Shown here: positions 43,498 to 50,543 of the stretch, in pieces
How the letters are laid out: each line of letters starts with the position of its first letter
Numbering within the stretch: the first letter of the stretch is position 1
NCBI RefSeq assembly: GCF_009908315.1
Contig: NZ_JAAATW010000001.1
Location: 1,426,001-1,490,000 of the forward strand
Direction of reading: 5' to 3'
Source: Paragemmobacter ruber
Lineage (GTDB): Bacteria > Pseudomonadota > Alphaproteobacteria > Rhodobacterales > Rhodobacteraceae
DNA: 64,000 nucleotides
Notes under the pieces: model-generated
What the model was told of the DNA's origin: nothing
The model's input: only the letters and a program-made list of their open reading frames with translations
Databases searched by the model: none
Translations under genes and position numbers: made by a program

Positions 43498-44772
43498 ATG
43501 GATACGATCTATGCCTTGGCCAGCGCGCGCGGCAAGGCCGGGGTGGCGGTATTGCGCTTGTCCGGCCCGGCGTCACATGCGGCGGTCCGTGCGTTGTGCG
43601 GTGATGTGCCGGAACCCCGTCGCGCCAGCCTGCGGCGCCTCAGCCATGACGGGGTAGAGCTTGATCAGGCGCTGGTCTTGATCTTTGCCGACCGCGAAAG
43701 CTTTACGGGCGAGGCTGCGGCCGAACTTCATCTGCACGGCTCGTTGGCCGTAGTGCAGGCCGTGATGCAGGCCCTGTCGCAGCAACCGGGGCTGCGTCTG
43801 GCGGAACCGGGAGAGTTCACCCGGCGTGCGCTGGAGAACGGAAAGCTTGATCTGGCGCAGGTCGAAGGTCTGGCAGACCTGATCGAGGCCGAGACCGAGG
43901 CACAGCGTCGCCAGGCGCTGCGCGTGCTGTCCGGGGCGATCGGACGACGGGCCGAAGCGTGGCGCAAGGATCTGATCCGTGCGGCGGCGCTGATCGAGGC
44001 GACGATCGACTTTGCCGATGAGGATGTCCCGGTCGATGTGCGGCCAGAGGTTCTGGCCCTGATTGACGTGGTCCTGACGGACCTGCGCCGCGAGGAAGCG
44101 GGCGCGACAGCGGCCGAACGGATCCGGGACGGGTTCGAAGTGGCCATCGTCGGGGCGCCGAATGCCGGCAAGTCCACGCTGCTCAACGCCCTGGCCGGAC
44201 GGGATGCCGCGATCACCTCTGACCTTGCGGGAACGACGCGGGATGTGATCGAAGTCAGGATGGATATTGGCGGTCTTCCTGTCACGCTGCTCGATACGGC
44301 GGGCCTGCGCGAAACCGAGGATCGGATCGAACAGATCGGCATCGACCGCGCCTTGGAACGGGCGCGAATGGCGGATCTTCGCGTATTTCTGGACAGCGGC
44401 GATCAGGTTATCGGCTTATCGCCAGCCGAGGATGACATCATCATCTCCGGCAAGGCAGATCTGACGGGCCGGGGCGTTTCGGGCAAGACGGGGCAGGGCA
44501 TCGCCGAGCTGATCTCAATGATCCAGGAACGGCTGCAACCGCGCAGTGCGCGGGCCGGTTTGGTTATCCGCGAACGGCATCGTCTTGCGCTGGTCCGGGC
44601 GATCGGGGCTATGGAATCAGCGCGCCATGAGGTAGAGAAGGGCGCAGAAAGAGCAGAGCTGGCAGCGGCAGATCTCCGCATCGCCATCCGGGCGCTGGAG
44701 GCGTTGGTCGGGCGGGTGGATGTCGAAAACCTTCTGGACGAGATCTTCGCCAGCTTCTGCATCGGAAAGTAA
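43498..44772 (+). CDS. mnmE: tRNA uridine-5-carboxymethylaminomethyl modification GTPase MnmE
   Basis: The 424-residue protein has an N-terminal tetrahydrofolate-binding domain ([21 protein letters not shown]), a helical middle, a G domain with [17 protein letters not shown] and [10 protein letters not shown], and the C-terminal FCIGK that carries the catalytic cysteine. With MnmG it modifies the wobble uridine of several tRNAs. The gene stops 11 bp before mnmG and the interval contains part of a parS site. Confidence 0.97.
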
Positions 44773-44775
44773 GGA

Positions 44776-44791
44776 CGTTTCACGTGAAACA
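44776..44791. promoter_or_regulatory. parS: parS site overlapping the mnmG start
   Basis: CGTTTCACGTGAAACA matches the conserved ParB-binding palindrome TGTTTCACGTGAAACA at 15 of 16 positions, with the 14-bp core perfect. It lies 3.3 kb upstream of parB. The chosen mnmG GTG start codon is inside the site. Confidence 0.93.
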
Positions 44792-46649
44792 ATTCGATGT
44801 CATCGTCATCGGCGGGGGTCACGCCGGGTCTGAAGCCGCCGCTGCCGCCGCCCGGATGGGCGCCAGGACGGCGCTGGTCACGTTGCGGGCCGAAGCCATC
44901 GGCGTGATGTCCTGCAATCCGGCGATCGGCGGGCTGGGCAAGGGCCACCTGGTGCGTGAGATCGACGCCCTTGATGGCGTCATGGGCCGCGCCGCCGATG
45001 CCGCCGGTATCCAGTTTCGCCTGCTCAACCGTCGGAAGGGGCCTGCTGTGCAGGGCCCCCGCGCACAGGCCGACCGTAAACTGTATCGGCAAGCGATGCA
45101 GCGCCTTCTGGCCGCGGAACCCTGCCTGACGATCATCGAGGGTGAGGTTGCGGATCTCGTCGAAGACGCGGGTCAGGTGCGCGGTGTGGTTCTGGCGGAT
45201 GGCAGCCGCATCGACGCCGCAGCCGTCATCCTGACGGCAGGCACATTCCTGAACGGCCTGATCCATATCGGCGACAGCAACCATCCGGGCGGTCGCATGG
45301 GCGATCGGCCATCTGTTGCATTGGCACAGCGGCTTGCCGCGCTGGACCTTCCGCGTGGGCGGCTCAAGACCGGGACGCCACCGCGCCTATCCGGCCGTAC
45401 GATCCGTTGGGATCTGTTGGAAATGCAGCCCGGGGATGAAGACCCGGTCCTGTTTTCGTTCCTCAACACAAGGCCGCAGGCCCGCCAGATTGACTGTGGC
45501 ATAACCCACACCAACGAACGGACGCATGACATTGTGCGCGCCAATCTTGGCCGCTCCGCCATGTATGGGGGCCATATCGAAGGCGTTGGTCCCCGCTATT
45601 GCCCGTCGATCGAAGACAAAATCGTTCGCTTTGCCGACAAGACCTCTCATCAGGTTTTTCTGGAACCAGAGGGGCTTGAGGATGACACCGTCTATCCCAA
45701 CGGCATCTCGACATCGCTTCCCGCCGACGTGCAAGAGGCCTATGTCCGCTCCATCCACGGGCTGGAGGATGTGGTTATCCTGCAGCCGGGCTATGCCATC
45801 GAATATGATTACTTCGATCCCCGCTGCCTTCGCCCGACACTCGAGGTGCGGGATCGGCCTGGCCTCTACTTCGCCGGGCAGATCAATGGCACGACCGGCT
45901 ATGAAGAAGCAGCAGCGCAAGGTCTCTTGGCCGGGCTGAATGCCGCCGCCGCCGCGCTCGGGCGGGATCCTGTCACCTTCAGCCGCGCCGAAAGCTATAT
46001 CGGCGTGATGGTGGATGATCTTATCACGCGCGGTGTCACCGAACCCTATCGCATGTTCACCTCACGCGCCGAGTTTCGGCTTGCCTTGCGTGCCGACAAC
46101 GCCGACCAACGCCTCACGCCGCTGGGCATTCAGATCGGCTGCGTCCGCGATGATCGCCGACACGCCTTTGAGTCAAAGGCCGAACTGCTCCAGCAGGCCC
46201 GAAAAACGCTTGAGGGGCGCCGCTTGTCGGCCAAGGATATCGACGGGACGGGTCTCGTCGTCAGCCAGGATGGCGCGCGGCGCAACGGTTTTGATCTTCT
46301 CGCCTTTGGCGAAGACGCGCGCCCCGTGGTGGAAGGCCTCTTTCCGGATTTCGCAGAACTGCCCGATCCGATCCGGGAGCAGACGGCAATTGACGCGCTG
46401 TACGCGCAGTATCTGCACCGGCAGGAACAAGACGCACGCCTTCTTCAGCGCGAAGAGGATACGGTAATCCCGGATGATCTGGATTTTCGGGCCATGGCGG
46501 GGCTGTCCAACGAGCTTGCCCTGAAACTGACCCGGCATCGCCCGTCTACGCTGGCACAGGCCGGCCGGATCGAAGGGATGACACCGGCGGCACTTACCCT
46601 GATCCTCGCTCATCTGCGCAAGGCACAGCGGACAAAGGCCAGCGCATGA
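44784..46649 (+). CDS. mnmG: tRNA uridine-5-carboxymethylaminomethyl modification enzyme MnmG
   Basis: The 621-residue FAD protein has the dinucleotide motif [66 protein letters not shown] and the C-terminal MnmE-binding helical region (about 560-615). It joins MnmE in wobble-uridine modification. The start is GTG 44784, preceded by AAGGA. The parS palindrome reads TTTCACGTG in this frame, and homologues I recall begin MFHVK; here the codon where that ATG would sit (44775-44777) is ACG, so the protein probably begins at the GTG. The stop overlaps rsmG. Confidence 0.97.
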
Positions 46650-47260
46650 CGGTGGCATCCCTGCCGGAGGGTGTTTCACGTGAAACGCTGGACCGATTGC
46701 AACGGTTGACCGAACTCCTCGCAAAGTGGAACCCGGCCATAAATCTGGTCTCCCGGTCCACGGTTGATCAGGCATGGGATCGGCACATCCTTGATTCCGC
46801 GCAGATTTTCGGCCTCGCCCCGCCGGTGGCCACGTCATGGGTGGACATGGGCAGCGGCGGCGGTTTCCCCGGCCTCGTCATTGCCTGCCTCGCCGCCGAA
46901 CTGCGCCCCCAGATGACCGTCACCTTGATCGAATCGGATCAGCGCAAGGCCACCTTCCTTCGGCAAGCCGCGCATGACCTTGGCCTGACCATCCAGATCT
47001 ATGCGCAGCGCATCGAAACATGCGAACCTCAGAATGCCAGCGTCCTGTCCGCCCGCGCCCTTGCGGCGCTGCCTCTGCTGCTGGGCTTTACCCGCCGCCA
47101 CCTGTCAACAGACGGCATCGCGCTATTCCCCAAAGGCGCATCCTGGCGCGCAGAGGTTGAACAGGCGCGCAAAGACTGGCAGTTCACGCTCACATCCCAT
47201 CCCAGCGCGACCGATCCTCAAGGCGCCATCCTTGCCGTGAAAGCCGTCTCTCATGTCTGA
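46646..47260 (+). CDS. rsmG: 16S rRNA (guanine527-N7)-methyltransferase RsmG
   Basis: The 204-residue SAM-dependent methyltransferase has [24 protein letters not shown], the SAM motif [31 protein letters not shown] and SARALAALP. It methylates G527 of 16S rRNA. Residues 10-14, VSRET, are encoded by a parS site, so DNA-level selection fixes part of the protein. It overlaps mnmG by four bases and parA by eight. Confidence 0.96.
46673..46688. promoter_or_regulatory. parS: parS site inside rsmG
   Basis: TGTTTCACGTGAAACG matches the consensus at 15 of 16 positions with a perfect 14-bp core. It lies in codons 10-15 of rsmG, 1.4 kb upstream of parB and 1.9 kb from the first site. Confidence 0.93.
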
Positions 47261-48074
47261 CCCGAGCCGCCCCAAACAACCACGGATCATCGCGATCGCC
47301 AACCAGAAGGGCGGGGTGGGCAAGACCACCACCGCCATAAACCTCGCCGCGGCGCTGGCAGAGATTGGCGCGCGGGTCCTGCTTGTCGATCTCGATCCGC
47401 AAGGAAACGCGTCCACCGGGCTCGGCATCGAACCGGCGGATCGAAAGGTCACAACCTACGATCTGCTGCTGGAAGATGCGCCGCTTGACTCGGTCATCCA
47501 GCCCACCCGCATCCCGGGTCTGTTCATCTGCCCGGCCAATGCCGACCTGTCATCAGCGGATATTGAACTCGTCGCCAATGAAAAGCGCAGCTTTCTCTTG
47601 CACGATGCGCTGCGCCAGCCGGCGATTGATCGCTATGCCCTTGATTTCGTGCTGATAGATTGCCCACCGTCGCTCAGCCTGCTCACCGTCAACGCCATGA
47701 TCGCCTGCCATTCGGTGCTGGTGCCGCTGCAATCCGAATTCTTCGCGCTGGAAGGTCTGTCGCAGCTGATGCTGACGGTGCGAGAGGTACGGCAAACGGC
47801 CAATCCGAACCTGCGGATCGAAGGTGTAGTGCTTACCATGTATGATAGCCGCAATAGGTTGAGCCAGCAGGTCGAAACAGACGCGCGCGAAAATCTGGGT
47901 GATCTCGTGTTCCGCACGATCATCCCGCGCAATGTCCGCCTGTCCGAGGCGCCAAGTTTCGCCATGCCGGTCCTGACCTATGATCCGGCCTCCAAGGGAA
48001 GCGAGGCTTATCGCGCCCTTGCAACGGAATTGACGGCCCGCCACCCGTTCGACCGCACAGAGGAACCCGCCTGA
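47253..48074 (+). CDS. parA: Chromosome partitioning ATPase ParA
   Basis: The 273-residue protein has the deviant Walker A NQKGGVGKTTTAINL, LVDLDPQGNASTGLGI and LIDCPPSLSLLTVNAM, and binds DNA non-specifically through C-terminal basic residues. ATP-bound ParA on the nucleoid drags ParB-parS complexes and so segregates origins. It shares one base with parB (TGATG), and the two parS sites lie just upstream. Confidence 0.97.
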   Translation: MSDPSRPKQPRIIAIANQKGGVGKTTTAINLAAALAEIGARVLLVDLDPQGNASTGLGIEPADRKVTTYDLLLEDAPLDSVIQPTRIPGLFICPANADLSSADIELVANEKRSFLLHDALRQPAIDRYALDFVLIDCPPSLSLLTVNAMIACHSVLVPLQSEFFALEGLSQLMLTVREVRQTANPNLRIEGVVLTMYDSRNRLSQQVETDARENLGDLVFRTIIPRNVRLSEAPSFAMPVLTYDPASKGSEAYRALATELTARHPFDRTEEPA

Positions 48075-48982
48075 TGGACAAGAAACCCGAACGTCGCAGC
48101 CTTGGCCGTGGTCTTTCTGCGCTCATGGCCGATGTGGCCGTGGACAGTGATCCGCAGACGCCGGATCGGCCGCGCCGCCCCGATCTGTTGATCCCGGTTG
48201 AAAAGCTCGTTCCCAATCCCAACCAGCCGCGCCGTGATTTCCAGCCCGAGGCGCTGCAGGAACTGGCGGCGTCCATCCGGGTGAAAGGCGTCATCCAGCC
48301 CCTGATCGTGCGCGCCATGGGCAATGGCAGCTATGAAATCGTGGCGGGCGAACGGCGCTGGCGGGCCGCGCAGCTGGCGCAGTTGCATGAACTGCCCGCG
48401 ATCGTGCGCGATTTCACGGATTCCGAGGTGATCGAGGTCGCGATCATCGAAAACATCCAGCGGGCCGATCTGAACGCGATCGAAGAGGCGCTCGCCTTCC
48501 GTCAACTGATGGATCGTTTCGGCCATACGCAGGAAAAACTCGCCGAAGCCCTGTCCAAAAGCCGCAGCCACATCGCAAACCTGCTGCGCCTTCTGAACCT
48601 GCCCGAAGACGTGCAGGCCCATGTCCGCGACGGCAAGCTTAGCGCCGGTCACGCAAGGGCGCTGATCACCGCTCCCAACGCGTCGGAACTCGCCCGGCAG
48701 GTCATCACCCGCAATCTTTCGGTGCGCGAGACGGAAAATCTGACCCGAAACTCGGATCAGAAGGGCAGGGGAAAGACCAGCGGCCCCCGCCCCAAGTCTG
48801 ACAAGGACGCCGATACCCGCGCGCTGGAAAACGATCTTTCCGCCAATCTCAACATGCGCGTGACGATTGATCATGGCGGGGCAGGGGATGGCGGCACGCT
48901 GTCCATCCGCTATCGCGATCTGGATGATCTCGATTTGCTTTGCCGCGTGCTCTCGGCCATTCCCCGCGACGTGCCGGTTTAG
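48074..48982 (+). CDS. parB: Chromosome partitioning protein ParB (CTPase clamp)
   Basis: The 302-residue protein has an N-terminal ParA-contact region (RRSLGRGLSALMAD), a CTP-binding/ParB-N domain with PNPNQPRRDFQPEAL, GVIQPLIVR and VAGERRWRAAQLA, ENIQRADLNAIEEA, a helix-turn-helix (TQEKLAEALSKSRSHIANLLRLLNLP) and a C-terminal dimerisation domain. It loads at parS and slides as a clamp, recruiting SMC and ParA. Confidence 0.97.
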   Translation: MDKKPERRSLGRGLSALMADVAVDSDPQTPDRPRRPDLLIPVEKLVPNPNQPRRDFQPEALQELAASIRVKGVIQPLIVRAMGNGSYEIVAGERRWRAAQLAQLHELPAIVRDFTDSEVIEVAIIENIQRADLNAIEEALAFRQLMDRFGHTQEKLAEALSKSRSHIANLLRLLNLPEDVQAHVRDGKLSAGHARALITAPNASELARQVITRNLSVRETENLTRNSDQKGRGKTSGPRPKSDKDADTRALENDLSANLNMRVTIDHGGAGDGGTLSIRYRDLDDLDLLCRVLSAIPRDVPV

Positions 48983-50160: not shown

Positions 50161-50535
50161 TTATCCCTTGAAGGCCGTCACCTCGATCTCGACCTTCATC
50201 TCGGGTCGGATCAGCCCGGCGATCACCATCGTCGCAGCGGGCCGGATTTCGCCCAAGGCTTCGCCCAGCGCGGGAACCAGCGGATCCACCAATGCCGCAT
50301 CCGTCACCGTGTACTGGACCCGCACGATATCTTCCATCGTGAAGCCACCCTGTTCCAGCACGCCCTTGATCGTGCGAAAACAGTTGCGCGCCTGATCTGC
50401 TACATCCTCGGGCATGGTCATCGTGGCGTAATCATACCCCGTCACGCCCGAAACAAAGCACCACCCGCCCTTCACCACGGCGCGCGAATAGCCCATCGTC
50501 GCCTCGAACGGCGATCCTGTCGAAATGCGCTTCAT
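50161..50535 (-). CDS. RidA family (YjgF/YER057c/UK114) protein
   Basis: The 124-residue protein has the RidA trimer fold with SRAVVKGGWCFVSGVTGYDYATMTMPEDVADQARNCFRTIKGVLEQGG and a C-terminal VEIEVTAF strand. RidA enzymes hydrolyse reactive enamine/imine products of PLP enzymes, including those of threonine dehydratase (ilvA at 61.6 kb). I chose ATG 50535, which overlaps the rdgB stop in ATGA, with GGAGG 10 bp upstream; the ATG at 50544 would lie right on that ribosome site. The typical RidA Arg is not obvious, so it may be a Rid-like subgroup. Confidence 0.88.
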   Translation of the reverse strand: MKRISTGSPFEATMGYSRAVVKGGWCFVSGVTGYDYATMTMPEDVADQARNCFRTIKGVLEQGGFTMEDIVRVQYTVTDAALVDPLVPALGEALGEIRPAATMVIAGLIRPEMKVEIEVTAFKG

Positions 50536-50543
50536 GTGAAACA
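50528..50543. promoter_or_regulatory. Degenerate parS-like palindrome at the rdgB/ridA junction
   Basis: CGCTTCATGTGAAACA matches the parS consensus at 13 of 16 positions (two core mismatches). It lies 2.5 kb beyond parB. It may be a decayed or weak ParB site; the similar MFHMKR reading over it echoes starts seen at true parS sites. Confidence 0.35.

Follow-up and report, generated by a model that had tools for sequence, protein, structure and literature searches.

The window, a stretch of 64,000 nucleotides from Paragemmobacter ruber (Rhodobacteraceae, Alphaproteobacteria), carries the gene order mnmE-mnmG-rsmG-parA-parB, with every gene on the forward strand according to open reading frame calls and family profile matches (Table 1). 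The identity of RsmG, the 16S rRNA guanine-527 N7-methyltransferase, is supported by a score above the curated TIGR00138 cut-off, and the match starts at residue 19, that is, C-terminal to the VSRET stretch discussed below. The name parA is based on the place of the gene and its KGGVGKTT motif, the best family matches lying below their cut-offs. The dnaA gene is found about 88-90 kb away on the same contig.

Table 1. Genes and sequence features of the mnmE-parB region, in window coordinates.
Feature	Position	Strand	Basis or remark
mnmE	43498..44772	+	ORF; NF003661 and TIGR00450 above cut-off
Shine-Dalgarno-like AAGGA of mnmG	44771..44775	+	Overlaps mnmE stop codon; 1 base before parS core
parS core 1, GTTTCACGTGAAAC	44777..44790	.	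GTG start (44784-44786) and codon 2 of mnmG; 16-bp site 44776-44791
mnmG (gidA)	44784..46649	+	ORF; TIGR00136 790.1 bits, cut-off 524.85; GTG start within parS 1
rsmG (gidB)	46646..47260	+	ORF; TIGR00138 121.8 bits, cut-off 99.5
parS core 2, GTTTCACGTGAAAC	46673..46686	.	rsmG codons 10-14 (V S R E T); 16-bp site 46672-46687
parA	47253..48074	+	ORF; ParA-type ATPase families match, best ones under cut-off; KGGVGKTT motif
parB	48074..48982	+	ORF; TIGR00180 194.7 bits, cut-off 58.45; GERRWRA and ENIQR motifs
Degenerate parS-like site, 2 mismatches	50529..50542	-	Over ATG start of Rid-family gene beyond parB

The first-pass annotation had proposed two near-perfect parS sites within the coding region of mnmG and rsmG, just upstream of parAB, and both are indeed present. 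The chromosomal parS consensus has been quoted as the 16-bp palindrome TGTTNCACGTGAAACA (PMC4409726). At each of the two sites the 14-bp core is exact and 15 of the 16 bases of the consensus TGTTTCACGTGAAACA are matched, with a single outer-base difference in each (CGTTTCACGTGAAACA and TGTTTCACGTGAAACG), and parA and parB lie adjacent to one another immediately downstream. As had been claimed, the first core lies over the mnmG start, covering most of the Shine-Dalgarno-to-start spacer, the GTG start and the second codon. The second core does fall in rsmG codons, read as GTT TCA CGT GAA AC, with the correction that it spans codons 10-14 and not 10-15. The core GTTTCACGTGAAAC occurs exactly only twice in the whole 3.96-Mb assembly. 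When up to three mismatches are allowed, the window contains 3 matches, a number reached by 13 of 100 shuffles and thus no excess; the case therefore rests on the exactness of the cores, their uniqueness in the genome, their position and their conservation.

At least one exact core was found in 142 of 150 genomes of the family, compared to none of the 150 for a reversed-pattern control, and by row count 113 of the 150 have exactly two. Tabrizicola sp. TH137, the closest named relative found in a genome scan by protein, has exact cores at both places, and two Planctomycetota loci from the same scan show no cores at up to two mismatches. For the alignment of rsmG genes, a first set combined 100 genomes, fetched from the 147 family genomes with an rsmG match, with 60 genomes of other families of the class, taken from the better-scoring matches listed among 363 matching genomes. 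Because the family part includes by design all 13 genomes with zero or one exact core plus an rsmG match, its 89 exact cores in 101 genes understate the family rate. In this set, with the gene of the window included, 143 of 161 rsmG genes carry the exact core at the homologous codons (88 in the family, 54 in the class part and L058, whose rsmG is frameshifted), 9 have a variant in place and 9 lack the site. L045 is counted here as an in-place variant, although the rsmG-tree alignment shifted its site to absent, and L058 is counted as an exact site while being excluded from the codon alignment. The frameshift in L058 (G398) splits rsmG into two overlapping tblastn pieces with the parS codons still exact, and could be a sequencing error or the mark of a decaying gene.

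A second set of 40 genomes, 39 of them from other families, was drawn from the listed matches of a model that starts after the site; it contains 22 exact, 2 variant and 16 absent rsmG sites. The family groups f11 and f52, which supply 13 of these 40 genomes, account for 13 of the 16 absences (8 of the 8 and 5 of the 5 members fetched, respectively), and their parS-like sites sit elsewhere in the region. The arrangement is thus widespread, not universal: a centromere built into these genes, as the first-pass annotation had described it, applies to this genome and is frequent across the class, and the fetched f11 and f52 members are without the rsmG site. On the rsmG tree, 18 changes were counted for the 18 non-exact rows, a figure that is approximate given the poor resolution of the tree, in which 85 of 157 inner branches are open. 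Outside the class, neither a core (up to one mismatch, in 3.5 kb around rsmG) nor VSRET was seen in 30 loci with the best TIGR00138 matches. A Ser or Thr followed by an acidic residue occupies about the same place of RsmG in 15 of these 30 loci.

A site lies within 30 nt of the aligned mnmG start in 97 of 101 family genes, and 89 of these sites are exact. In all 97, the frame makes the central GTG an mnmG codon, and in 80 the core is preceded, at a distance of 1-3 nt, by the end of a Shine-Dalgarno-like motif, so that the start falls on this GTG. The start is ATG in the four family genes with a GTTTCACATGAAAC core. This change from GTG to ATG is the commonest deviation of the mnmG site (4 of 8 deviating sites: L046, L050, L051 and L054) and may reflect competition of a better start codon with the parS sequence. 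The four family genes without a site at mnmG are L048, L049, L055 and L059; two of them, L049 and L055, come from short contigs, and in L059 an exact core is found farther upstream. Class genomes that have an upstream site carry it before mnmG or elsewhere and never on its start; among the genomes compared, the overlap with the start codon was seen in the window's family alone. Members of the family group f151 (L220-L222, L226, L230, L232 and L245) have one to three GATTCACGTGAAAC or GACTCACGTGAAAC variants upstream of mnmG, several of them about 35-50 bases apart and alongside an exact core.

The codons of rsmG allow the DNA site to be separated from the protein that it encodes. All 166 of the 201 rsmG genes that read VSRET at this place write it in parS codons, 165 of them with the exact core; the remaining one, L118, uses a variant that recurs at each of the five sites found in its genome with no more than one mismatch. 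None of the 25 rsmG genes without the DNA site reads VSRET. In the 160 aligned genes, in which the five residues are conserved to 96% (V), 95% (S), 94% (R), 95% (E) and 94% (T), codons 10-14 have a mean codon entropy of 0.22 bits; the 46 other codons with a residue conservation of 80% or more average 1.68 bits, and the lowest among them has 0.88 bits. Pooled codon use elsewhere in rsmG (GTT for 0.24 of Val, TCA for 0.11 of Ser, CGT for 0.16 of Arg, GAA for 0.52 of Glu) leads one to expect only about 0.2% of unconstrained VSRET stretches in these codons. Among the conserved codons of the family set, frozen synonymous positions are confined to codons 10-14; when the class set is taken by itself, codons 170-171 are likewise unusually fixed. 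Agreement with the 16-bp consensus extends to the bases on either side of the 14-mer: a T precedes it in all 88 exact sites of the family and in 47 of the 54 of the class, and an A follows it in 82 of the 88 and 44 of the 54. The conservation of synonymous positions, which had been put forward as a check, is thus strongly borne out, and the sequence pattern indicates that it is the DNA site, not the enzyme, that decides the residues at this place of RsmG.

Within a gene, the palindrome can be read as VSRET or FHVK only, since the third frame contains TGA. Accordingly, the 164 exact cores within matched gene spans encode VSRET (157) or FHVK (7), with no exceptions. Extra cores recur at similar places, namely around rsmG codons 103-110 in seven loci, at rsmG codon 54 in three, at mnmG codons 461-462 in two and at mnmG codon 512 in two. 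L051 and L056, which have lost the site at codon 10, have cores at rsmG codon 54 and parA codon 81. In AlphaFold2 models of four RsmG sequences (mean pLDDT 86.5), the first predicted helix spans residues 12-32, with Ser11 immediately before it; we infer from these models that VSRET may be tolerated because it makes an acceptable helix start, with Ser11 as a putative cap.

The rsmG site is altered in nine genomes of the first set. In seven of these, at least one of its substitutions recurs at another site of the region when the sites are compared in folded half-site coordinates. When sites were permuted among genomes, which does not control for relatedness, the mean was 0.25 and seven was reached in none of 10,000 permutations. 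The protein is altered in six of the seven concerted genomes, where RsmG reads VPRGT (two genomes), VPRET, VSHET, VSCET or ASREA, and only in G209 (L118) is the change silent. G209 has five GTTTCACGGGAAAC-type sites, no standard core genome-wide and one unrelated-looking site with two mismatches; its variant equals the parSc probe of Thermus thermophilus that ParB bound in a gel shift (PMC4409726). Three genomes of one genus (G136, G026 and G217) have GTTCCACGTGAAAC twice each and no standard core genome-wide. G101, also without a standard core genome-wide, has GTTCCACGTGGAAC at at least eight places among the matches listed (12 of 13 places); since the reversed control likewise gives 13 matches at up to two mismatches, only the repetition of the variant was counted. 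More generally, this control is as high or nearly as high in G101, G411, G439 and G487, where matches with two mismatches are thus mostly due to chance, and the evidence on variants was confined to identical repeated variants or operon sites with one mismatch.

By eye, no relationship is seen between the flanks of the paired variant sites, which argues that these sites changed separately and were not duplicated; an origin of the concerted variants in a shared insertion or gene conversion was rejected on this ground. Single sites can nevertheless deviate: the rsmG site differs from otherwise exact sites in L023 and L150 of the first set, and L225 and L229 of the second set read VSHET next to standard sites, the latter two telling against strict concert. 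Of the 142 genes whose rsmG site is exact, 17 have at least one variant site elsewhere in the region, and in 6 of these 17 all the other sites are variants. In a small sample, the asymmetric variants in L118 (G209), L121 (G136) and L050 (G487) keep one orientation at all regional sites, which a symmetric ParB dimer would not require, and L046 shows opposite orientations.

At the four positions that determine specificity in Caulobacter ParB (173, 179, 184 and 201, mapped from PMC7383237), no consistent change is seen in the variant genomes; Asp at the equivalent of position 184 is found in L118 and L163, yet L106 and L156, with their standard core, have it too. An explanation of the variants by these specificity residues thus finds no support at the four positions. 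In G439, a genome without sites, no ParB match and no core were found, and the rsmG codons at this place give LSPVT. It is the only clean case without ParB, as G503 has only a fragment at a contig edge, G476 has ParB, and G448 lacks both ParB and an rsmG match.

Two further features of the region were observed. One of the two mismatches of the degenerate site beyond parB turns the central GTG into ATG; the Rid-family gene that it overlaps scores 49.5 bits against TIGR00004, below the cut-off of 106.25. The same place carries an exact core in L007, L026, L057 and L090 and a core with one mismatch in L017 and, near by, in L064. The other feature is a TTGAC at rsmG codons 171-172 or so in 43 of the 60 class genomes outside the family (L105-L164), as GAATTGAC in 41, followed about 21 bases later by a fixed TGGA, the whole lying around codons 170-181. 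The motif is present in only 9 of 100 family genomes, and 37 of 41 located TTGAC sites are 94-196 bases before the aligned parA start. The TTGAC/TGGA pair is likely a parA promoter frozen within rsmG codons.

Several readings compete to explain the conserved palindromes. If VSRET were a protein-level motif needed by RsmG, the identity of the DNA would follow from shared ancestry or from codon bias near the gene start, and the high residue conservation and the plausible helix cap at Ser11 speak for this reading. However, these codons are the only conserved ones in the family set with frozen synonymous positions, VSRET is missing from every gene without the DNA site as well as from the 30 loci outside the class, and the residues change in step with other parS sites. 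The reading, extremely improbable in our view, was rejected. Conservation of the palindrome as an mRNA hairpin (5-bp stem, ACGU loop) controlling the translation of mnmG and rsmG is very improbable. The isolated 14-mer does fold (-2.3 kcal/mol) and the start codon would be covered in mnmG, but both start regions fold no better than shuffles in their context (z of -0.94 and -0.21), the ACGT loop and the stem are about equally fixed, and some exact cores lie between mnmE and mnmG, outside the matched gene spans. Moreover, GTTCCACGTGAAAC breaks one stem pair and is yet kept at both sites in three genomes of the same genus. The hairpin was rejected.

Regulation by ParB bears on the same sites. Their location within the cluster that encodes ParA and ParB, with one of them on the mnmG start, would suit candidate operators that are centromeres as well, at which ParB represses or tunes an mnmG-rsmG-parAB operon; outside the family, however, the upstream site, where present, precedes mnmG and spares its start, and a role as operators seems unlikely. 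Rather unlikely, too, is the bolder view that the centromere is also regulatory, with ParB at the mnmG start and in rsmG tuning tRNA- and rRNA-modification genes and so coupling modification of the translation machinery to segregation, while parS drift would rewrite enzyme residues and the mnmG start (GTG or ATG) class-wide. Taken together, codon freezing, the loss of VSRET without the site and the concerted variants support the earlier proposal that VSRET is dictated by a DNA site, and point to selection on the DNA and not on the encoded protein. The palindromes are thus very probably functional parS sites of the downstream chromosomal ParABS system, with selection for ParB binding acting on the DNA and the overlapping genes having adapted.

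Placement of parS inside genes is known from other systems. In Bacillus subtilis, a chromosomal parS lies inside spo0J, a coding gene of the par operon, which differs from the present case in host gene and phylum. The closest parallel is parSc of T. thermophilus HB27, which is likewise inside gidB (rsmG) immediately upstream of parA, is bound by ParB in vitro and is needed for ParB foci in Escherichia coli (PMC4409726). Unlike here, it concerns one species and one site, of sequence TGTTTCCCGTGAAACA, and the parts of that report consulted do not discuss codons or consequences for the protein (PMC4409726). In Pseudomonas aeruginosa, 9 of 10 predicted parS sites are similarly within coding sequences, and the intragenic sites were mutated without altering the protein; cross-species codon locking or residues following the motif are not reported in the portions consulted (PMC4368675). 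The repABC replicons of Rhodobacterales also have parS in open reading frames downstream of repC, hypothesised by the authors to be positively selected even within coding sequences, but they use a different ParB/parS family (GTTNNCNGCNGNNAAC) and are chromids and megaplasmids, not chromosomal mnmG/rsmG loci (PMC9040568). The terms gidB, gidA, rsmG, coding and intergenic are absent from the main text of a Caulobacter ParB paper (PMC5815017). Thus, parS inside genes and even inside gidB is already published, and in the titles and beginnings of abstracts of the open-access papers searched, no report of codon locking or of concerted rewriting of RsmG was found. The survey of parS distribution by Livny et al. 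in 2007 may include the gidB placement in alphaproteobacteria.

In functional terms, the system is an ordinary ParABS with an unusually well documented dual-coding centromere. For ParABS systems, it is established that ParB loads at parS as a CTP-dependent clamp and spreads and that ParA drives the movement of the complex; in this organism, ParB would presumably load at both sites and spread, and ParA would move the complex. Selection for ParB binding would act on the DNA, to which mnmG and rsmG would adapt. In RsmG, the V-S-R-E-T residues could be accommodated because they lie where the first helix begins, Ser11 acting as its N-cap, a place where the RsmG of many other bacteria also has Ser or Thr and then an acidic residue. 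The spacer between the Shine-Dalgarno motif and the start of mnmG is occupied by the left half of parS, and the central GTG of the site serves as start codon. As the parS preferred by a lineage drifts, its sites would usually drift together and the residues of RsmG would follow.

The locus appears to be a clean natural case in which a structural DNA site dictates protein sequence throughout much of a bacterial class. A single 14-bp motif appears to fix five residues of an enzyme that modifies rRNA and, for one family, the mnmG start codon as well, and in lineages where the motif has changed, the enzyme has mostly changed too. It would offer a test bed for dual coding, in which synonymous recoding separates DNA function from protein function, as well as a marker for the drift of the parS motif. 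It is also a warning that conserved residues of RsmG need not be evidence of enzymatic importance.
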